From positions 20,284,527-20,348,526 of the forward strand of contig NC_089730.1 of NCBI RefSeq assembly GCF_035083965.1: a stretch of 64,000 nucleotides of DNA, read 5' to 3'. A program made the position numbers and the translations under genes. The first letter of the stretch is position 1. Every line of letters starts with the position of its first letter. Positions 2,943 to 58,990 of this stretch are shown one piece after another. The stretch comes from Branchiostoma lanceolatum. Its lineage: Eukaryota; Chordata; Leptocardii; Amphioxiformes; Branchiostomatidae. The notes under the pieces are model-generated. The model saw only the letters and a program-made list of their open reading frames with translations. It had not been told where the DNA came from and did not search any database.

Positions 2943-4805
2943 ATGAGTATGGCTAGGCCCCCACCCCAAAGAGATGACGATCCCCCGCCCCCAAGATTGC
3001 GGAGATGGGCTACATTACCATTTCTAATTTTCGCTATCGCTGTGGCGTGTTTAGCGTATTACGTGAGCAGAAATCAAGAACAATTCAAACCAATTTTGGA
3101 AGCCCTCTGGTTAAAGAAGGAGACACCACCTCCACCGCAAGCACCTCAACCCTGCAATGGAATGTTCAAACCAAACGTCACCTGTAAGTACATCGTAATA
3201 CTTGGCCTTCGATGAAAGCCTAAAATCATAACAAAATGCAGATAGATCTTCTACATAGTTCTATTGAATTAGTTATTGGAGAAAAATGTTGTCGACAGCT
3301 CTCTGTTGTGCACAAAAATGGTGTTTGGCAAATATTTGACGATGGTAACGATGAAAATAATCAATTTCTCACCCAAAGATATACATGACAGAAAGAACGT
3401 CTCACTTTCCTCTACGTATTCAATGAATTACGTTCACATTTCAAAACAATATCAGTTACAACTAAGGTTGTTGTATTTTATTTATCATGTATGAATTTAA
3501 GGACAACAATTGCGATCTGGTACAGTGGGCCATTCTACCAGCAATGGTCACGATCAGAGTCCCTACCCGTATTATAAATAGTTATCGAAAGAGATTGTAC
3601 CAGTTGAACCGCCCATTTTACCTTTTGTAGTGGGGAGGCAGATGACGAAATATGCTATTTGGTCGTGTTGCCTAGTTTTTATTAAATCGTTATAGTCTTT
3701 GAGAAGTTCAGGTAAGCACTGACATAGATTTTGACTTAAACATCTTGCTCCACCTGTTCTTGAAACCAGACTTGGAAAGCATCATCACTAGACGCCTACA
3801 TGGACAGCCACTTGTCCTGAAACTCGTAACGGAATCGCTCCGGGACCACCTCGGCAGCCACGCCCCCAGCAAGGCTCTGCTGCTCTCCTTCCACGGGCCT
3901 CCAGGGGTGGGCAAGAACTACATCAGCGGCATGATAGCGGAGGCAATGTTCGAGGGTGGACTCGAGTCGCCTTATGTTCATCACTACTCGGCTACAAGGC
4001 ACTTTCCACACAAGGACGAAGACCACATTATGCAATATAAGGTTGTTTGTTTTTAACTTCCCTGACATTGGAAAAGCTACAATGAAAGAAATATTTTACA
4101 GGTTTAAGCAAAACGTATAGATTATGTAGCTATGATAATGACAGAATAGCAAGGTTCTTTCATCCACAACCAAGTATTTACAAGAGTTTCGATGACAGTC
4201 TGTCATCTTCATCAGGCTGATAATGATGACAGACAGTCATTGAAACGTCGGCTCATGTAAATACTTGCTTGTGAACAAAAGAACCTTGCTATTAAGTCCT
4301 TCACCAACCTGATGAAATCATTCACGGATATAATAATCACAGTTCTCTCCTCCAGACTACAGTTTCTTCCAGAGTTTTGTTTTTCCTGATTTCCATAGTC
4401 TAATGCGTTGCTTCATCTTTCAGGACAAGCTTCATCGTGAAATTCCAGAAAAAGTACAAAGCTGTCAAAATGTTATGTTTATATTCGATGAGATGGACAA
4501 AATGCCTCAGAACCTAATAGACACCATCAAGCCTTTCGTGGAGGAAAATGTCCATGTTGACGGCATTGACTACAGGAAGACTATATTCCTGTTCCTGAGG
4601 TGATGAAAGGATAAGTACCATTCTATCATGTAAATGTATGTACGTAATGTGTATGTGTATTTGTATGTGTGTGTGTTTGTGTGTGTGTGTCTGTACATAT
4701 GTATTCATGAGTATGTATGTACATGTGTGTTTACATTTATGTATATATACAAAGCATTTATGTGAGTCTGTGTGTGTACGCTTGTGTGTTTCTGTATGTG
4801 AGCGT

Positions 4806-4856
<51 letters not shown>

Positions 4857-7475
4857 ATAGCATCTACACGTCAGTATATTGTAAATCATCAAATGGACAG
4901 ATGCCTATTATATTGTATTTGACCACAGTAACACAGCAGCGGAACCGATCATCGACAAAACCTTGGGGTTGAGAAGACGCGGCGTAAACAGAGAGTCGTT
5001 CCGTCTTAAGGATTTTGAGCAGGTCATCATCACGAACGCACTTGGAGAACAACGTGAGTGCTTCTCAAACTTGTTCTGCACAAGTTTGTCAATCGTTTGA
5101 CACTTTTAAGACTAATCATCATATCAATAACCAAACTTTCAATAACGAGTGAATATCAGGCTGCTTATTGAAAATAGAGATACACGTCCTTTTTAGAGGC
5201 GTCTCTTGGCGGCTTTGATATTGGTGTGTACATTTGTCGGATTTGAGGAATGTGTGAAAACAGCTCAGCATATCTGAACTGGTAAAGCAAGTACGTCGAC
5301 TAGAAGCCACATTTATGATTGTGAGTAAACATACATGAAATCATTAACAGTACATGTAATCATTAACAGCTTGGTGCCCTGACCTTCGCATGGCGGGGCT
5401 CACCAGTCCAGCAATGGGCGACTATCGCAATACCAAGACCCGAGCTGATCGCCCCGTGTACAAACATATAGAACATGAGCTCTACATGTTCTTTGACGGT
5501 AACAACTGGCGCGTGGGAGAAGAACAACGAACCAAAGCCACGGCGTTGATGATTCTTGAAGATAAGGTAATGCGACCGGAAGAAAGCAAGAAACATTGGA
5601 TCGAGTTGCGGGACGGCAGTTGGGAAGACGTGCCTGAAGTCCAAGTTACCTGTCTGGGTGAGTCAAATTCTGAGCCTCACACATTAGTACCAAAGTAAGG
5701 TTTCCAATTTTGTTGTTGTGTCTGTGCGTGTGTGTGTGTGTTGGGCGGGGCCGGGTGTGTGCAAACTAAGGCTAAATGTCTCATGCTTGTGTTGACAGAT
5801 GCGCCCCCTGCCGGTGGACCCCACGTGTGCACGAAAATCAAGTCATATCCCTGCATCGAGACTTCCATCGAGGAACATGAAGTCACGTGCTGGCTATTCT
5901 GGACTTGCCTCAGGTATCATTTAAAGCACTTTTACTTTAAGTACTTTTACTTTTATGAACACTTTTAACCTACATGAAGTTATTGCAACTGACACATAAT
6001 AGTATGAACTACATGTAAGAATAGACAAATTAAGTTCAAATAATTCAATGCTTCTAAACACCACACACGTTCCTCGGTCAAAGATTGCAACCAGTCCCAA
6101 AACATCATAAAACATTTGTTTTACCCAACAGCCAGCGCACAGTGCGGAGAAAGACGGCCTGCTCCCAGACGCAGTACTTTTGCTGTGACGGATTCACACA
6201 ACTTGGAACAGAATGTGTGAAAGGTAGGTTGCCCTAAAGTTGGTTATATGCATAGACTGTGTACATAAACATACGATCTATACCTGTGAAAGCTTATTTT
6301 TAAAGCTTATAAAAGTAGGTGCAGACCTAAACGACATAGCAATTCAGCGTGAGGCCACCATAATAACCCACAGTGTAAATAAAAGTATTTGCCCAATTTC
6401 AAATTCTGGCTCACATTCCCACATGTGTGGGGAGGGGTGGAGAGTGGGATGTTTGTTTGTGCGTGTTTGTGTGCATGTGCATGTTGTATCTACATGTCAT
6501 TATGCAGTAAATCATTAGATGGGCAGATACCTGCTAGCCCAGTGTCATGACTGAACAATTGTGCAAGTTTTTTTCTAAAAGCAACAAATTTGGCATACAT
6601 GTACTTGGATGTATTCTTGATAAGTATAGATATGGATGTATGAAACCTTTACCAATGTGATACTAACGTATAGCATCTTTATTGTCTTGCAGGCACGGGC
6701 TTCTGGCAGGCAGAATTGCTGAGTCACAACCTGGTGAACCACGTGGTGCCCTTCCTGCCCCTGGAGAGGGAACAGGTGGAGATGTGCGCCAGGGACGTCC
6801 TTCTGGAGAAGGGACTGGAACATCTGCTCACGGGGGTAAGTAGGACCTTTTGTCAGTTTGTAAGACTATGATCAATCAAGAATAAAAGAACAAGGAAAAT
6901 AGGGAGTACAGACTCCATCCCCTTGCCCATACGACTTTGTGACCCTTCCAGGCTCACAACTTTATCTGTTGGGAATTGTAGAAAGTTAACGCAAACAAAA
7001 ACGCTTCACTCAAGACTGAAGCTTGACTTTGTTGGCCTAAGTAAGGTAGCCCTTTATCTACGTGGTGCAGCTGTCGTGGTTAGCTTGACGCATCTTTTGC
7101 TTGTCTTCCTTTTTAGTTGATCTCGTTACATCTCTGAAAAGTTAAAAAGGTTATTTAAAAAAAAAAAACAATTTTCTTGTCGTCCTCCTTTTCTTTTTTC
7201 AGCTACATCCCAATTAAACATGGGAATCAATATTTGACAGCGTCTTGGTAACAAATGTCTGCAACTTCTTCCTTTACCCAAGTTAATGAACATAATCATT
7301 TACATTCATCCATTGTTCAATAGGCTCTTTCATACATGTATGTCTTTCCGCTCAGGCCAAACTGAGACAGATTTCCGACGAGCTGCGCTACCTGCCGAAG
7401 GGTGAGAAGATCCAGTACTCTGAGCACGGATGTCGTCCTGTTAGGAGCAAAGTTAGCATGCATGTCAAATCATGA
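2943..7475 (+). CDS. Torsin-family AAA+ ATPase with inserted RPVYK-type and EMI-like modules
   Basis: Nine exons: 2943-3183, 3728-4041, 4424-4599, 4929-5053, 5370-5657, 5799-5913, 6132-6223, 6693-6835, 7356-7475. All phases close, giving 537 aa (ordinary torsins are about 330). Residues 1-22 are Pro/Asp-rich, followed by a hydrophobic anchor (about 24-42), so this looks like a type II membrane protein of the ER/nuclear envelope lumen. Torsin hallmarks: Walker A GPPGVGKN (137-144, with the torsin-type Asn after Lys), Walker B VMFIFDEMDKM (catalytic E208), sensor-1 Asn (N245), the GFWQAELL and VVPFLPLE blocks, and the paired cysteines in EMC (C482) and the GCR sensor-2 motif (C524). Residues 286-450 (exons 5-7) have no torsin counterpart and are treated as a separate feature. 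Torsins act on membrane and nuclear-envelope substrates and need LAP1/LULL1; a LAP1-like gene is at 56105-58990. The acceptor of exon 2 is the least certain boundary. Confidence 0.9.
4145..4293. mobile_element. Foldback MITE-like element in torsin intron 2
   Basis: Outer arms AATAGCAAGGTTCTTT and AAGAACCTTGCTATT pair. The inner parts also pair: AAGTATTTAC with GTAAATACTT, and GATGACAGTCTGTCATC with GATGACAGACAGTCAT. It contains GAAACGTCGG, a motif shared with other foldbacks in this window. Confidence 0.75.
4636..4855. repeat. TG-rich microsatellite in torsin intron 3
   Basis: Degenerate TG/TATG repeats lead into a pure (TG)n tract from about 4810 to 4852. The long reading frames here are low complexity. 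Confidence 0.9.
5370..6223 (+). other. Exons encoding two extracellular-type modules inserted in the torsin
   Basis: Exon 5 (5370-5657) encodes about 96 residues with the pattern RPVYKH...LYMFFDG.NWRVG...HWIELRDGSW...VTC. I recall this kind of module from lancelet and other invertebrate deuterostome extracellular proteins but cannot attach a Pfam name. Exons 6-7 (5799-5913, 6132-6223) encode about 69 residues with eight Cys and the ending YFCCDGF...C, which resembles an EMI domain. Phases are 1-1 around exon 5 and 1-1 around the exon 6-7 pair. Joining exon 4 directly to exon 8 keeps frame and gives GEQRTGFW, matching the ordinary torsin region before GFW. This is therefore a clean exon-shuffling insertion that could also be skipped as a unit. 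Confidence 0.65.
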
Positions 7476-13907: not shown

Positions 13908-16886
13908 TAAAAACACACTCACATACACACACACAAACACATACATACACACACACACAGACACACACATATACATACACACACACAAACACACACACAC
14001 ACACACACATACATACATATATATATACCTGTTCTGCAGCTGTTGCCTCAGCATGGCGTAATGTTGTCTCTCCTTCACAGCTTTCATCACGTCCTCCTCA
14101 CAGGACAACCTCTGCATGGTCTCAGTCCCGTCTAAACACACTTCTAAAATCTGGGAGAGAGACAGTTACCACTCAACAACAGAACCAAACATAGTCTACT
14201 TCTTAATTGTGTTTTAACATTTGTTTGGAGCTGTCAAAACATGTGATGATAATTCAGCACCAAGGACATTGCCAGTCCTACTTCCACCAGTGTATGGCAC
14301 TGTGTATATTGTTAATGACTGTGTTGGTTAAAGCCTGTATTTTATTATACTACAAGGTGACACAATTCTTCAAATTCAATAAAGTAATGATTTATATACT
14401 GTAAGTCTAAATTTACACTTAGTGAAGAAAAGGAAGAACCCTTCCACTTGCAAAATCTACAAACCAACCATATTCAATACAGGTACATGAACAGCAGAGA
14501 AGAGTCAAGTCAACTCAAAAAGCAGTCTGTACAGGGAAACTATGATCATGATAATAAGAACCTTGTTCATCTGTGGCATCTTCTTAAACTTGGTGAAGAC
14601 AAAGATGAAGACAGGCAGAGGCATCTCCTTCTGCGACGTCTCCCGGTCACTGTCCGACACCTTGTGCACTCGGGTGATCCAGCCTCTAAGAAGGGGGGAG
14701 TCACAGGTTAAAAATATTAAGGACTATTTCTATGGTAAACATTGTAAACAAAATACTGGCAGATGAATGATTCCAAGTTGTCTTAACACCGTAATTCTGT
14801 CTGCTTTCTATCCTTATATTTGTGGTCTACTTACCTACCTACCTTCCTATAGTCTAATATCCTTCTTAAAGGACATCCTTACTTAATTAAAATCAAAGGC
14901 TTAAGGGTTTAAAATCTAAGTGTTAAGTTGTTGTTTTTTTTACTTACAAATCAATCTTCCCTCATAAACCACTCAATATGTACACATGTACACATAACTG
15001 CATGACTGTATGATTATGGTCAAACACATTGTACCAATTTCTGCGTGTAAAAGTACTGTAGTGCATCAAAATGCTATATCCTGCTTAAAGACTTACTCCT
15101 GAGGGAAGTACTGCATGAGCTTCTCCAGAATGTGTTCTTGAGACAGGGTGATGATGACGTAGCGACCTCCGACCTTTAACACCCTGCCGACCTCGTCAAA
15201 CATCCACGTGACCCGCTCCTGGGTCTCTGATTGGCTGTCGGGCATCAGGGCGTCCAGCGTGCCCTTGTCGAGAACCGCGCTGAAACTGGAGTCAGGAAAG
15301 TCCATCTGGAACAGGGGGAGAAAAGTTTACAACATAGCATAACAGAACGTTTTACCAATAACTTAGTCAAGGTTTTCCGTATATGTAGTCAAAGCTTTTT
15401 TGAAGGGATGGCCTGTGAATCAAGAGCAGAGAGGGTTAGGTCATCGCACACCAGGGCATAATCGTGATTTTATCAAGAAGTGTAATATAAGATGTGCTCT
15501 GAGTGATACCAGATACTTTGACAAATAATCAAAACCAGGAATGTTCTTAAGTCTACATTACAGGGCAATCCCAGGCATAGCTTTAGTCTGGTAATCTGGT
15601 ATTGTAGTTATCATCTGTTTCCTTGTTTTTTTTTTAGCTGAGGGGACTACAAGAAACCCAGCAGCTACAGTAGAGATGGATACCAGACTAGCTTTGTTCC
15701 CAAGTTCTTCCAACCACTCAAGTTGTAGATATAGTATACAAGAAAATACTCGAAGATATAAATCATTAGCATTGTTAATAAGCAAAGACATATATGTCTT
15801 GAAATTTTGTACTACCTACGAACTTGCCATACATTGTACCTGTTACATTTGTTGTGACATAAACTTTGATTGATTGATTGATGGATGGATTGATATGTAG
15901 ACCAGTGCCATTATCGGTCTTTACTCTTTAACCTTTAGCCTACTAATAAGGCAGCCATCTGGCACTAAATTTGTATTGGTTGTTAGGCATCCCAGAGAAG
16001 GTTAAACAAAACTCTTGCCAACACACTTCTCTCCCCTCATGACCTCAATGAAAAGCGGCCTGCGTGCTGATTTGAGCTTATCATGAATAAACAAAGGTTC
16101 AAACAAAGAAACAAACACTTAACCTCACCTTCATGACATCCATCTGTAGGAACTTCATCTCCGCTCGTTTCTCCGCGTTTCTCTCCGTCATCTGCCGCAC
16201 CACGACATCGCTGATGTCCATGTTGGTCAGCCCGCGGTACCCGACGTCGTAGAGATCCTCGCTGAGCCGCGAGTTGCCACACCCGACAACCAGAACCTGC
16301 TCCTGCGGCTTGATGTACTTGTGGAGGATGCCGCACAACTCTGGGTACTCGCCGTACCTGTGGGCAAATAAGCAAAAAAATAAACAAACAAAGGAGTCTG
16401 TGTGGTCCCCATACCATACTATATAGACTACGAAAATGATGTAGCAAACAGCCAAAACTGAAAGTTTGTTCTCAGTGTTTGACAATTTTCCCCTGTAACT
16501 ATTCTAGAGAAGAACTTTCTATGATCAATAGCACATAGTTTTACACAGTTGCAGTGTCTTAATAAATGAAAAAGTTTGACTTGAAACCTTACATGCACAA
16601 GGATTAGATAGTAACTAGTGACTAGAACTAATGTATTCATATGAACCTGTAGCTTGCGCTCACAGATAAAAAAGAGGCGCAATAACACCTTTTGCCATCT
16701 CCTTAAGCTTGTTTTGACTAGAAACAGATCTGAAGTTGAAGTAATTACATGTATATGTTAAAACATTAATCTTTTTTAATGAACAGAAAATCACCATTCG
16801 AATGCCTTCTCCCCCCTCTTCCTGAAGAACTTGTCCCAGTAGGCTGCGGAGCTGAACTCGGTGTGACTGCGCGGTAACAGGTCCAT
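8811..16886 (-). CDS. METTL13: METTL13, eEF1A lysine and N-terminal methyltransferase
   Basis: Thirteen minus-strand exons: 16886-16795, 16357-16129, 15305-15097, 14685-14562, 14150-14029, 13432-13286, 12850-12664, 12085-11905, 11278-11144, 10729-10653, 10315-10180, 9740-9612, 9127-8811. All phases agree and sum to 694 aa (human protein 699). The start [20 protein letters not shown] matches METTL13. The N-terminal SAM-binding motif is VLVVGCGNS (52-60), followed by [17 protein letters not shown]. The C-terminal domain has [28 protein letters not shown] and ends [19 protein letters not shown]. In human, the N-terminal domain methylates eEF1A Lys55 and the C-terminal domain methylates its N-terminus; I infer the same here. 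The gene is head-to-head with ITPA. Exons 6 and 8 each have a partial copy just upstream, listed separately. The exon 4 donor (AAG|GTTCTT) is weak. Confidence 0.96.
9822..9895. mobile_element. Small MITE-like fragment in METTL13 intron 12
   Basis: GAAACGTTTCAGTCAGACGC, then GGTAGC..GCTACC and TTTCGTCAGTG, has the same design (AACGTTTCAG, short palindrome, TTTCGTC) as the centre of the foldback at 27422-27593. The ends are unclear. Confidence 0.45.
12129..12214 (-). repeat. Partial copy of METTL13 exon 8 with its acceptor
   Basis: About 85 bp repeats the start of exon 8 (GTACCATTCCTGTCCGTAGG on the minus strand) with the same preceding TTTCCAG acceptor, then breaks off inside the exon. It lacks the rest of the exon and its donor. 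It lies upstream of the intact exon (12085-11905) in the direction of transcription. Confidence 0.9.
13555..13630 (-). repeat. Partial copy of METTL13 exon 6 with its acceptor
   Basis: About 55 bp of the 5' end of exon 6 (AGGCCTGGAGGGAGAGAC on the minus strand) is repeated with an upstream TTCCAG acceptor. The copy stops at AGCAGCTCTAGT. The intact exon is at 13432-13286, downstream in transcription. Confidence 0.9.
13825..14022. repeat. CA-rich microsatellite beside METTL13 exon 5
   Basis: (CA)n and CATA repeats run right up to the exon 5 donor at 14028. Long frames across it are low-complexity artefacts. Confidence 0.9.
16028..16101. repeat. Dispersed repeat tail, copy 1
   Basis: CTCATGACCTCAATGAAAAG, then GCCTGCGTGCTGATTTGAGC and TTATCATGAATAAACAAAGG, is nearly identical to 48888-48958. 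It looks like the 3' tail of a non-LTR retroelement. The CAAT/CGAT difference between the copies suggests modest age. Confidence 0.7.
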
Positions 16887-23603: not shown

Positions 23604-23624
23604 TCAACATCTAAGCTTCAAGCC

Positions 23625-24236
23625 ACATGTACAAGACACATGTACAAGACACATGCACAAGACACATGCACAAGACACATGCACAAGACACATGTACAAG
23701 ACACATGTACAAGACACATGTACAAGACACATGTACAAGACACATGTACAAGACACATGTACAAGACACATGTACAAGACACATGTACAAGACACATGCA
23801 CAAGACACATGCACAAGCCACATGCACAAGCCACATGCACAAGCCACATGCACAAGACACATGCACAAGACACATGCACAAGACACATGCACAAGACACA
23901 TGTACAAGACACATGCACAAGCCACATGCACAAGACACATGCACAAGACACATGCACAAGACACATGCACAAGACACATGTACAAGACACATGTACAAGA
24001 CACATGTACAAGACACATGTACAAGCCACATGTACAAGCCACATGTACAAGACACATGTACAAGACACATGTACAAGACACATGTACAAGACACATGTAC
24101 AAGACACATGTACAAGACACATGTACAAGACACATGTACAAGACACATGTACAAGACGCATGTACAAGACGCATGTACAAGACGCATGTACAAGCCGCAT
24201 GTACAAGACGCATGTACAAGACACATGTACAAGGCG
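23625..24236. repeat. 13-bp minisatellite, about 47 units
   Basis: The unit is ACACATGTACAAG with position variants (ACACATGCACAAG, CCACATGCACAAG, CCACATGTACAAG, ACGCATGTACAAG). Variants occur in blocks, which suggests repeated local duplication. Thirteen is not a multiple of three and no unit contains a stop in either direction, so several overlapping frames of 200+ codons appear; these are artefacts. It lies in the probable 3' UTR of the minus-strand gene. Confidence 0.97.
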
Positions 24237-33285: not shown

Positions 33286-36200
33286 CTAAGTAGAGAAGAA
33301 GAACTTCTTGGTCAAGGTCGTGACCTGGCAGGGCATCTGTTTGGCGGGTTCGGAGCCGACTGTCTCGCGAGAAGACACCTTGTTGTTGACCACCGTCAGC
33401 ATGTCCAGCAGGTGGTCAGACTGCACCTTGTCCTTGAACACTTCCAGCATCTCAGAAAGGAACCAGGAGCCCTCCCCCTGACGGCGATATGCCTTGAAAC
33501 CTGCAGCAAAAAAGATGCTAGTTGATGCTTATATTCATCTGAAGAACAGGTTATCATCTGTCAGTAATGAGGCTGTTGCAATGTGCTCCAAGCAATAGCC
33601 TCCTTTCTGTTATATCAATAGTCAATAGTCAGGATGCCCTTCCTGGATTTCTTACCCAGGTCTCCCTGTTACCATGTTACTGAGACATTAAATTGGAACC
33701 AGGAGCTCAACTGTGAGGTTGTTATCAGTTAAGCTCTTGAGTTGAACAATAACAACAACAGGTAGAACAGATCTCGTACCTTCTGTCGTAGCGTAGGCCA
33801 CCAGCACGTCAGCGTCCCGTGGCGTGGTGACAGAGCGCATGACGTCAGAGATGTCCTGCTGTCCCTCATCCCCTGGCTCTTCGTCAGCACGGTCCACACC
33901 TGGCTGCTTCTTCTCACCACGGCACGCTTGGATGATGAACATCTTCGGACTCCCTAGATGGCATGAGAGATTAGATGTACATTGATGTCAAACAATTAGT
34001 GCAAGGAGGTTATATAACCTTGATTAGCAGTAACCTTTTCATAGGGGCCCCCTGTTCATAGCAGCTAATCACCAGTCCCTTGAGTGACCGCTATAGACAG
34101 GTTTGAATGTACGACTAGTAACTAAATATAAGATTGACTTTGGCCTTTGGTTTTCTGTTCTTTTAAGGGACTGTAGCACAACAGGAAAATAGCTCAGCCT
34201 GACAATGATACTGCATGCCCTACCCTTAAGAACATTTTTGGCAGCAATATGGCCTGGAGTAGTGTCAGTGCCCAAATGTTGAGAATGATCAAAATCATTA
34301 TTTTTTGGATGGGAGAAGATCCAACCCATTGTTTACAATTAAGGAAGCAGTCCATAGAATCAATTCCACATAGTCCTGTGCCAGTTGCTTGCGGTACCCA
34401 TTGTTACTATAGCTACCAGGGCCCTTTTCTGTCCCTTCAATAAAGTAACAAGTTTATTGGACTGCTCAAATCTAAGCCCACCTGCCATGCATTTGAGACT
34501 GTCCCCCAGGAATGGAGCCTGCAGCTCAGCCATGGAGACGGTCTGGTTATCGTGGGACCTCACTCCCTCCTGTGAGCAACAGAGACTTGTGTTTTAGGCT
34601 AGATCTTAATCAAATAACAGACAGTACATATATTAGCATCATTTTCCTGTCATATAAATATGCCTATGTCAATCTTAGACAATGTAATACTGTTACACAT
34701 TGTACCATACTGTAGCATTACATGTTTCACACATTTCCCTAAATCTGGCGATACACATTGGTTCTGTTCCACCTTTAGGAGAAGAGTTAAAAAGGTGCAA
34801 TACTACAATATGTGCACTACTGAATGTTGCAAAAACGTGTGAAGCACTGAGAATGAGCTGAATCCTTACATCTGCTTGGAGATTATAAAGCCACATGACA
34901 ATTATTAATATAACTCCTACCTTGTCTCCATGGCTGGACACGATACAGATGAAGCAGGAGTACTTCTTTTTTCCTTTTCCCGCTGCAGTCTTCTGGATTT
35001 CCAGCTTGGCCATTTCCAATGCAACCAGCATCTGTTCCTTAGTGAGATCCTCCTCAGTGATGACCTTGTAGTCAATCTTCTCAAAAAAGTCATCAAGCTC
35101 TTCAACATCCTTGGTGGAAGCTGAGGGAAAGAGTTAACATGTCTTAGAGCTCACATTTTCAAGTTTGCTTTGTGAGGGTAGTTCAGAAACATGCACACAC
35201 ATGCACACGCACACATACAGAGACATACAGACACCACACATGCCCACACACATGCACACAGACACCCGTCAACATAAGCACATACACCTTTCCATGCATG
35301 GTTCTTAGACATGTACTTTATTTCTTCTCTAGTATTAGTAAACATTTAGGAAGAGGAAATCATCGAAATAGAAGGCTGTGAGGAAAACTTTAATCTAACT
35401 GCAGGGCTCGAAGTTAACTATGTCCCTATGTCCCGGGGCCACCAAAATTTGACCAGGGACAACTCAATAATCAATTTGGGACATATTTGGGACAATCAGG
35501 GCTCCTGACTGCCACTGTGCTCCTCCCTTGTGAAACTGTATACTGGTCCCACCCACTGTTTTTGGTGTGGTACTAGTCCTCTCTAAATCAATCATCATTT
35601 ATCACTCAGCATAGTGAAAGGAAAGCCTGTCCCAGCTAGGCTGTGGCACATGTCTGCTCCCCTGACAGGGGGTCAGCAGAGGGATGGTCAAACCTCATTT
35701 ACTTGATTAAGGTTTGCCCTGCAAGATTAGAAATCAAACATTTTTGGATTTATTCTACCTCCCCAAGAGCCACCGCATCAATGAAGTCTTTAAACTCTGC
35801 AGAATTATGCTTTTTCTTTTATAAACTATTAAAATACATTATTTCAGGTTGTTGACAATATTTCTGGTTGTTAACTTTGTTAAAACTTGTGTTTACTACT
35901 GAGTGTATATACCTTTGTATGTATTATATTTTTCAAATTTCATGCAATTTTCTATTTTACAATACAAAATTTTGTATATAACTAAAAAAACAAATATTCT
36001 AACACAGATTGGCTTGGGCTCAGGTCCTGACTTGAGTATAGGTCCAAACCTGAACATGAACCTCTGGAACTGAATGCAGACCCGACACTAAGTTCACATC
36101 TTTGGCCCTGGTTGGGACACTTCAGGATACTTTCGGGACAGTTGAAATCCACATTTGGGACAATGTTGGGACAGTAGGGGAAAAAGTTAATTTCGAGGCC

Positions 36201-41045: not shown

Positions 41046-54842
<13,797 letters not shown>

Positions 54843-56104: not shown

Positions 56105-58990
56105 CTAAGAGCAGCTTGTCGGCAAATCATCACTTTTGTCCACTACAAGCACAAATCCTGCCATCCTGCTCATCAAAGCTCCGACCTTGTCTATGTCTAA
56201 AACCCAGTCCCTCTCCAAGTGGTTCTGTAGTCTGTCCATGGCCTCCCCCTCTATCTCGGAGTTGGACCGGTCCATGTGGATGGGTTCTTCCAGCTGCAGT
56301 ACCAGGATGATGGCCGTTTCCTTGTAGGGGGCATTGGTGTTGTCACAGTAGGAGTGGAAGATGAGGTTGGCCTGAAATGTAGAATGTGGATGTTTCTTGT
56401 TTATTTTTTGATATCAATTCATTTTCTATCTATTTGCATGTTTGAGCCTTTGCTTACTTAACAAAAAAGGAAATAGGCCCATTGGCTGCTTTTCATTGAG
56501 GTCATGATAGAGGAGGTAAAGGTCAGACAAATTATAACAAAGATCAAGTCAGACTTCGCTTTCTTTTATCAGGGTAGCTCCCTCATTATCTGTGTACTGG
56601 TTTACAGATTCAATGATACAGGGAAGTAGCAGTAGCACAAAAGTGTACATACTAAGGCCAAACCTACTAGTACAGTCCTACATGTCCAAACCAGATTGTT
56701 AAAGATAATCCTAGACCCAGCATTAATCCATGTTTGGTAACAAAACTTTACTTCTATCTATCATTCTCTACTGAAGAGTCTACATATAGCTTAAGGATTT
56801 TACCTACCTTCCTAATCCCTAGACTTCCTGGTCATGGGTGTGGGTGTGTGTTGCATGGTAGGCATGAAGAGGGAGATTTTACCTACCTACCTACCTACCA
56901 AGGATCTTACAACACTTCCAAACTGAACCTTTATAGCTACCCATACCTGTAGGGGAATGTCCTGTAGACTGTAGACTACAGCTGCCTTGCCTCCCTGACT
57001 GAACCCTGCATGGAGAACCTCGTCTAGGCGCTTCTTAGCTTCATCTGCATCCAGACCTTTCAGCTGCTCACCTGTGGGGGGAACATTCACGAGAAAGCAT
57101 TAGTTGTGTGGCAACAGTTCTGAGTTTGGTGGAACGATTAGCTTCATGTGCATGCTATAGCAATACTAGTATATGAAAATATAGGAATGTGTGTGGCAAG
57201 GTGGTCAAGGTTATTGACACATTAAAGATCCCACCACACTTCAAAATTTGTGTGAGTGGATCAAACCTTACAGTCCAGACTGTACAAAACAGCCTTAAGG
57301 CAGTTTACCAGTTATGCAAAGCAAGCAAATAAAAATTGTTAGCTATACTTACCAAAAAGCAAAATCCATAATATCAGCATACTGGAATGAAGCCTATGGT
57401 ACCTTATAAGATATAACACAGCTATAGCCTTAGGCCTACTTCTCTTACAAATTCTTCACCTGCTTGTTTTTGCCAACTCTAGGTTTACCATATATATTAC
57501 TAGGTTAGCTTTTGCTTGCTCCAACACTAGTACATATGTCCATCTTCATTTCTACCTTGTCCCCCCAACGACCCGGAGGTCAAAGGACTAGGTGGGTAGG
57601 TAGGTAGGTACACTAGTACACCGTCATGAAGGCTGATATGCAGGCTAGAGTACCAAGCGTTCTATTTCTAAATGTCATATGTATATGTTCGGTTTATGAA
57701 AGTCCCATCCTTACCGTGCACGACAGTAGGCCTCTTATCGAATCCCTGAGCGACGAGCCTGGCGACGCACCTCGCCGTGTCGTGTGTTCCCGGCGCGGAC
57801 GCAACCAGCAGCACTGCAGGCTGGGTAATAATGGCGGGCGGGTACAGGAGGGCGCGACCCATCGCACCAATGACCTGCAACATGTAACACTACTTCACAA
57901 ACAAGGAAGAGACAAGGTGGTCTTGTGTGTATGGTTGTTACACTTACAGATTAGGGCACAACTCATCGCAGCAACAACCTGCAACATGCAAGAAGCATCA
58001 TTACTTTACTCGCAGGAGTATTATTCTGGCTTGTGTGGGTGTGTTTGTTTCTGGAGTGCAGTTTCCGTCTGTTCTAACATGGGTGCCATCCTAGACTCTC
58101 ATACTCTTCCCAAAAGAACTAGGGGCCCCAGTAAACTAACTACTACTACTAGTAGTAGGATGGCATCAAGGCCGTTGTCTGTTCTGCCAGGGGGTGCTTA
58201 TTGCTAACGTTACATGTACTAGCTATTAGTATGCATATGAATGATATGATGTACATGCACATCTATAATTTTTTTTATGAAGTACTTTTTACAGTATCAT
58301 CATGACACTAATAGAAGACAATAATGTTCTCACCGTCCACGTGCGTTGGTTCTGATTGGGAAACAAAGTCTTCAACTTCCTGACGTATTCCTTGTACAGT
58401 TCGGGGGAGTCGATGGCCGGCGCCCCCTGCGACTGCAGTGGATCCTTCCGAAGCATCGGCAAAACTATTGCAGTCAGGGCGACTATAACGAGCCCTATGA
58501 TTACGATATACATGCATAATGCCGCGGGATCTGTTGCATTCTTCGCTGCACCGTCAACCTTTGATCTATCAGAACGAAGTGGCGACGTTCGTGCTTGTAA
58601 AGGCGAAGCTTTAGTCTGTGCGACAGTTTCTACGTTCTCCTTGCTCGCCCGTTGTTTGGAGCCAGCTTTAGCGGCCTTTCTACGCTTCAAGTCCCGCTCG
58701 ACCGAGTCTTTGCTGCGGGTTCGGGACGCCACGGGAGACGGTCCGGCCGACTCCTCCCCACTGAAGTCGCTTAGCCGGGAATCTTGTGAGGTGTCAGGAT
58801 CTTCAGAGTCTTCGGAGAAACTTCCCATACCGCCGGGCTTCGCTCGGGTCGGCCCACCGTCCATGTTGGCTCGGCGTCGGCCGGGGGAGAGTGGGACTTC
58901 CCCCGAGCCGAGTCGCGCGTCAGGTCGCGTCCCTCGCCCTGCGGCGTCTGCCCCGTGCAAGGGCTGGCGTCTCAGTCCGCTACGACTCAT
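56105..58990 (-). CDS. TOR1AIP1: Torsin cofactor, LAP1/LULL1 family (TOR1AIP-like)
   Basis: Four exons: 58990-58334, 57874-57715, 57071-56947, 56371-56105; 402 aa in frame. Residues 1-157 are disordered, Ser/Arg-rich and basic (nucleoplasmic side in LAP1); 158-180 is a hydrophobic anchor (YIVIIGLVIVALTAIVLPML). The lumenal domain (181-402) follows the LAP1 pattern: LFPNQNQRTWT, then QPAVLLVASAPGTHDTARCV, GFSQGGKAAVVYSLQDIP, ANLIFHSYCDNTNAPYKETA, IILVLQLEE and LMSRMAGFVLVV near the C-terminus. In human LAP1 the corresponding SRISHLVLPV contains the arginine finger (Arg563), so Arg383 here should be the finger that activates torsin ATP hydrolysis. A Cys close to the end (SCS) is kept, as in vertebrate LAP1. 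Vertebrates have two paralogues (TOR1AIP1 and 2); I see one and cannot say which it matches better. Start choice: M1 gives the longest form; M43 and M55 are alternatives. Confidence 0.9.

Follow-up and report, generated by a model that had tools for sequence, protein, structure and literature searches.

The window, by which we mean the whole analysed stretch of 64,000 nucleotides of Branchiostoma lanceolatum DNA, contains on its + strand a torsin gene (2943-7475) whose nine exons encode a product of 523 aa. Torsins are a family of ER-resident ATPases that is mutated in early-onset dystonia. In our model all 8 introns are GT-AG, and an in-frame TGA (2931-2933) lies upstream of the modelled ATG (2943). 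About 49 kb from the torsin gene, the window also holds its likely activator gene. The parts of the two genes are as follows.

Exon 1, 2943..3183, + strand: start codon, Arg-flanked hydrophobic segment (residues 23-41, from hydropathy) and predicted luminal stem.
Exon 2, 3770..4041, + strand: torsin domain with Walker A GPPGVGKN.
Exon 3, 4424..4599, + strand: Walker B IFDEM.
Exon 4, 4929..5053, + strand: sensor 1 (LSN) up to ITNALGEQ; phase 1 at the 3' end.
Exon 5, 5370..5657, + strand: RPVYK-type module, 288 nt, 96 codons, phase 1-1, with the conserved Cys pair C274 and C366.
Exon 6, 5799..5913, + strand: first half of the 8-Cys EMI-like module, 115 nt, phase 1-2.
Exon 7, 6132..6223, + strand: second half of the 8-Cys EMI-like module (CCDGF), 92 nt, phase 2-1.
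Exon 8, 6693..6835, + strand: torsin again from TGFWQAELL, phase 1 start; its Gly aligns with human TorsinA G251.
Exon 9, 7356..7475, + strand: torsin C-terminal domain, sensor-2 GCR and stop codon.
LAP1/LULL1-type activator gene, 56105-58990, - strand: exons 58990-58334, 57874-57715, 57071-56947 and 56371-56105; 402-aa model.

Other features share the window with these two genes. Methyltransferase exons at 15096-16503 (- strand; Pfam Methyltransf_25, 3e-06) are presumably those of METTL13, and caspase exons occupy 33691-35133 (- strand; Peptidase_C14, 1.9e-09 and 6.4e-07). At 43899-51658 (- strand), CUB and sushi exons point to a protein that is secreted or membrane-bound, and a Thr-rich open frame (42925-43539) lies close to them. 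A 147-bp tandem array (51553-52983; 9.7 copies, 95% matches) overlaps the CUB exon region and is a possible case of copy-number variation of an exon fragment. At 23619-24233 there is a 13-bp tandem array (47 copies, 97% matches), and the long ORFs found there are repeat products.

A sequence-only reading of this DNA had described a torsin AAA+ protein with two modules in its C-terminal half, and our analysis bears this out. Pfam Torsin (PF06309) matches residues 76-192 with an E-value of 4.6e-34 (117.7 bits against a cut-off of 27), and the best PDB match of the protein is human TorsinA (6oif, 1e-56), with 5j1s matching as well. TorsinA aligns to the window protein in two stretches, 86-265 and 436-518, and the insert is the gap between them. 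The second stretch is the torsin C-terminal domain, which phmmer matches to 6oif with an i-Evalue of 1e-10; the Pfam TOR1A_C score of 25.2 falls slightly below the cut-off of 27. The torsin-family motifs, Walker A GxxGxGKN and Walker B hhhhDE, are present as GPPGVGKN and IFDEM, and the protein retains the Walker A Lys, the Walker B Glu, the sensor-1 Asn and the equivalents of E303 and of C280 and C319. It has in common with TorsinA (TOR1A; PDB 5J1S, 6OIF) the Torsin Pfam domain, the GKN Walker A, the DE Walker B, the sensor-1 Asn, the C280/C319 pair and the C-terminal domain, and TorsinA aligns on either side of the insert. It differs from TorsinA in the 165-residue two-module insert before G251, in the absence of sequons at the N143 and N158 positions, in an N-terminal hydrophobic segment that is preceded by an Arg/Pro-rich stretch, and in sensor II, where the Gly-Cys is kept and the Lys is replaced by Arg (GCR for the torsin GCK). 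Of the ten lancelet torsins whose C-terminus is complete, nine have GCR, some without an insert among them, and the paralogue P0004 has GCF; all 15 other-animal torsins compared have GCK. As a side observation, W222 is replaced by Arg and G210 by Ala in 9/9 lancelet rows checked.

Between the torsin block ending in ITNALGEQ and that starting with TGFWQAELL, three exons had been proposed, and their coordinates (5370-6223) proved exact. Exons 5-7 amount to 495 nt and encode a 165-residue insert at residues 272-436; the range of 286-450 given earlier does not hold in the present model, probably owing to a different N-terminal start. Exons 6 and 7 together form one phase 1-1 unit of 207 nt or 69 codons, and phase 1 is found at all three module boundaries. 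The phase 1 flanks and the restoration of the frame by omission, both claimed before, were confirmed: leaving out exons 5-7 yields an open 359-aa torsin with the junction GEQ-R-TGFWQ. The hydropathy maximum (2.16) falls at residues 23-41 with RLRR just before, from which a type II topology is predicted that would place the ATPase and the modules in the ER/nuclear-envelope lumen, where the ten insert cysteines could pair as five disulphides.

The earlier reading had proposed a search for the same architecture in other lancelet torsins, and we found it in orthologues and in a paralogue clade. Our protein search with the window torsin gave 146 matches among 8000 scored candidates, and the three best, all lancelet torsins, share this insert: P0001 (B. 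lanceolatum), P0002 (B. belcheri) and P0003 (B. floridae x B. japonicum). The architecture is already in deposited models, which among the matches listed are named TOR1A, torsin-1A-like, uncharacterized protein and "nuclear membrane organization". P0001 is identical to the window protein at 418 of its 428 residues and has a 22-residue gap; P0002 and P0003 contain the 22 residues, which supports exon 2 as modelled. For comparison, two other torsin paralogues show 84% and 80% identity between their B. floridae and B. lanceolatum copies, which fits B. lanceolatum as the source of the window. We compared 14 lancelet torsins, window gene counted, with 15 torsins of other animals in the same alignment. 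At least one module is present in 10 of the 14 lancelet torsins, the RPVYK module in 8 and all or part of the Cys module in 9. Both modules occur at the same site in 7/14, namely the window gene, its orthologues P0001, P0002 and P0003 and the paralogues P0004, P0121 and P0122, where P0003 and P0121 end before the Cys module is complete. Only the Cys module is present in P0005 and P0007, only the RPVYK module in P0123, and neither in P0008-P0011. An insert at the equivalent site is absent from all 15 other-animal torsins in the alignment.

In a tree of 30 rows built from torsin-core columns only, the lancelet torsins group together (support 100/100) and fall into four clades: A, which includes the window gene (95/98), and B, C and D (each 100/100). 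Clades A and B have both modules, C the Cys module only and D none. The best tree joins the insert-bearing clades A, B and C, with a support of just 28/11, and B and C were flagged as long branches. Because homologous modules occupy one site, a single origin of the Cys module is favoured; the RPVYK module would have been gained once or lost in C. Clade B comprises P0004, P0121, P0122 and P0123, and in all four the Walker B Glu is replaced by His and the sensor-1 Asn by Tyr or His. Since these two residues are lost, clade B torsins are predicted to be pseudo-ATPases despite carrying the modules (RPVYK in 4/4, all or part of the Cys module in three).

The cysteines of the insert are kept at every aligned position in nine related models: 10/10 in P0001, P0002, P0004 and P0122, 6/6 in P0003 and P0121, 2/2 in P0123, and 8/8 in P0005 and P0007. 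This observation bears on the explanation that the architecture is a gene-prediction chimera, with exons 5-7 coming from another gene or being non-functional and the error being repeated across lancelet annotations. Banyai and Patthy (2016; PMC4967905) report convergent errors in lancelet gene models and caution that errors of one kind can turn up in more than one lancelet species, and the deposited torsin models are imperfect, with 22 residues missing from P0001 and odd ends in P0003, P0121, P0122 and P0123. However, the exons sit within one gene and between the halves of one domain, not at a gene end, their phases agree, and the frame that is open around exon 5 (5360-5695) contains no Met ahead of the module's first Cys; a separate gene for exons 5-7 was rejected on these grounds. 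The module sequence and its cysteines are, moreover, conserved among orthologues and between two paralogue clades, which lie on contigs of different length in B. lanceolatum and in B. belcheri. The retention of the cysteines wherever they are aligned argues strongly against an annotation chimera, although it is not equal to RNA evidence, and we regard this explanation as very improbable. At the level of gene models, the insertion is real, conserved and unusual, and it lies in a known family.

The same gene models speak to a further alternative, in which exons 5-7 or one of the modules are a regulated cassette: the canonical 359-aa torsin would be the usual form, inclusion would be tissue-limited, and splicing would decide whether a self-assembling or a capped torsin is made. 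Such a switch would be helped by the symmetry of both units and the restoration of the frame on skipping, and the B. floridae clade B model P0123 lacks the Cys module, its RPVYK module running straight into the C-terminal half of torsin. P0123 may, however, reflect an annotation choice, its C-terminus being odd too, and P0001 and P0002, the closest models, contain the two modules. We consider a cassette unlikely, though it deserves to be kept in view.

RPVYK-type modules give the impression of occurring more widely in other proteins. The 96-residue RPVYK module of the window gene has no Pfam match, and five copies compared with Pfam gave an unrelated DUF at 0.041 as their sole match. It has no match among PDB sequences either, and profile searches of the two modules there gave nothing credible, a single LIM-protein chain at E 0.59 being the best result. 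The open-licence literature found on RPVYK concerned apidaecin peptides. The Cys module (69 residues) has eight cysteines that are invariant across six aligned copies. Its window copy matches no Pfam family and gave no EMI match at E<=10, and 4 of the 6 Cys modules scanned gave no EMI match. The remaining two, cut out of P0005 and P0007, matched the EMI profile (PF07546) over nearly its full length with E-values of 0.013 and 0.012, at scores of 16.7 and 16.8 bits that lie below the gathering score of 25; in the whole proteins the E-values were 0.65 and 0.71. EMI matches appeared in 0/10 shuffles of the P0007 Cys module, five of which had the cysteines fixed in place, and the Cys module copies also had weaker Pfam matches to other families, led by Gliadin (0.028, P0007 copy). 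The Cys-rich module recalls the EMI domain in ending in CC[DPK]G[FY]; it differs in its placement inside an AAA+ ATPase and in the scores, with no EMI match for the window copy and matches below the gathering score for those of P0005 and P0007. We therefore call the module EMI-like and do not class it as EMI. The EMI and RPVYK profile similarity expected from the sequence-only reading was found in part: the window modules match no Pfam family, and sub-threshold EMI similarity was seen in P0005 and P0007.

The same reading had attributed the insert to exon shuffling. Class 1-1 symmetry is described as typical for shuffled extracellular modules (PMC8001218), and it is the phase 1-1 symmetry of the insert that upholds this claim; a donor gene was not found in two narrow searches, which used a method that needs shared 5-mers and similar protein length. 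The whole insert of P0001 retrieved only lancelet torsins (3/59 candidates, query included) and no donor for either module, and the RPVYK part of P0004 retrieved only lancelet torsins as well (4/18 candidates, query included) and no donor. A tblastn search within the window gave no convincing further copy of the modules. From the phase symmetry, we consider an origin by exon shuffling likely. The arrangement is reminiscent of the middle domain of ClpB/Hsp104, which likewise interrupts a Clp-type AAA+ ATPase and modulates its activity and partner binding. That domain is a coiled coil in a cytosolic hexamer, and its insertion site and module fold differ from those of the lancelet torsin.

LAP1 and LULL1 (TOR1AIP1/2) are luminal torsin partners with degenerate AAA+ motifs, LAP1 being described as lacking the C-terminal small domain (PMC4358337). 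Clade B torsins are similar to them in also having an altered Walker B. The activator model in the window matches Pfam LAP1_C (1.9e-23) and the PDB chains of LAP1 (4tvs, 4.1e-19) and LULL1 (5j1s_B, 1e-16). These alignments place the Arg of its MSRM opposite the residue that is, by count, the arginine finger (LAP1 R563, LULL1 R449), and LAP1 C424 corresponds to the Cys of its ARCVAR; unlike the insert-bearing torsins, it has no inserted modules. LULL1 was reported to bind TorsinA at the nucleotide face and the small domain, with Arg449 as the arginine finger, and the authors of that complex describe the back side of TorsinA as conserved (PMC4999309). A number of the charge contacts between TorsinA and LULL1 (K113, D316, K317 and D327) differ in the window protein, as many of them do in other invertebrate torsins; these altered contacts and the GCR sensor 2 count against the reading proposed below.

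We numbered human positions as in 6oif (chain index + 50). Human 242 is the counterpart of window residue 265, and human 248 that of residue 436; the insert maps to about TorsinA 247-249, and the next conserved G-F-W is G251-F252-W253. In the TorsinA filaments described in PMC6646356, residues 232-262 on the non-catalytic face rearrange for subunit packing and self-assembly, and G251Y, D188A/Y and D264A prevent the filaments. Since the insert lies inside the 232-262 segment and LULL1 binds the nucleotide face, activator binding would be spared and torsin-torsin packing may be disturbed or re-specified. The earlier suggestion that this torsin assembles differently gains support from this position relative to the published TorsinA structures.

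The residues implicated in filament formation were compared among the same torsins. At position 188, nine of the ten insert-bearing lancelet torsins have Glu and P0002 has Asp, which is also found in 4/4 insert-free lancelet torsins and 13/15 other torsins. At position 264, Asn occurs in clade A (3/3 covered) and C (2/2) and Asp in B (3/3 covered); the position is missing in D (4/4), and the other-animal torsins have Asp in 11/15 and Thr in 4/15. G251 is kept in A (3/3 covered), C and D and lost in B (3/3 covered). Conservation by region did not separate the clades. Taken together, these patterns lean towards altered packing, with no clean split of the insert-bearing torsins. Against altered packing, G251 is kept in the window clade, the orthologue P0002 has Asp at position 188, and a change from Asp to Glu is mild. 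These patterns do not make a clean test of capping, D264 changing in insert-free torsins too.

The modules might alternatively be a passive decoration on an insertion-tolerant loop, binding nothing specific and leaving assembly unchanged. The insert is identical between the window gene and P0001 at 155/161 aligned positions and between the window gene and P0002 at 100/160 (five linker residues excluded). It diverges faster than the torsin core, as passive decoration would have it: window and P0002 are identical at 59/98 positions in the RPVYK module and 41/62 in the Cys module, against 148/180 and 70/83 in the core. The Cys-only and insert-free paralogues also indicate that the site tolerates change. 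Yet the cysteines are retained across lancelet species, whose split is placed at ~100-200 Myr ago (PMC4967905), and the insert lies in the very segment whose rearrangement TorsinA self-assembly requires (PMC6646356). We find passive decoration rather doubtful.

Based on these findings, we propose that two modules were added in the lancelet lineage to give a torsin that stays compatible with its activator, self-assembles differently and has a luminal binding arm, a reading that we favour tentatively, at a little short of even confidence. Two disulphide-type modules would have entered the AAA+ domain of a predicted type II ER/nuclear-envelope ATPase at the site of a phase 1 intron. A LAP1/LULL1-type activator would still switch the window torsin on at the catalytic face. 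The modules would occupy the opposite, non-catalytic face, where they may block or re-specify torsin-torsin filament packing, and they may act as a luminal binding arm for a putative partner or client. The exon anatomy, the in-frame conservation, the kept catalytic motifs and the site N-terminal of the Gly251 equivalent are read from the sequence itself. A broader version, which we regard as speculative and improbable, is that lancelets split torsin function by exon shuffling into an active torsin and a pseudo-ATPase paralogue with Walker B Glu replaced by His, both with arms on the packing face; these would not polymerise as TorsinA does and would pair with each other or with secretory clients under LAP1 control.

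Searches of open-licence literature on torsin in amphioxus and Branchiostoma, and the best matches of wider ones on torsin or EMI, did not bring up a description of this architecture. B. floridae is among the species in the alignments of Sosa et al. 2014 (PMC4358337), the main text of PMC4999309 does not name Branchiostoma, and the main text of the lancelet genome paper (PMC4284660) does not mention torsin. Many claimed domain insertions in lancelets have been blamed on gene-prediction errors (PMC4967905), and the present one is a comparatively well-supported case. Both the working assembly state of torsins (heterodimer, ring or filament) and their function and client are described as unsettled (PMC4999309, PMC6646356). 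A bulky insert beside the Gly251 pivot on the non-catalytic face could uncouple activator binding from self-assembly. If the window torsin is expressed and active, TorsinA-like filaments are probably dispensable for what it does, and its modules would offer a handle for fishing out a luminal partner. The insert-bearing lancelet torsins would then provide a natural test of torsin assembly.
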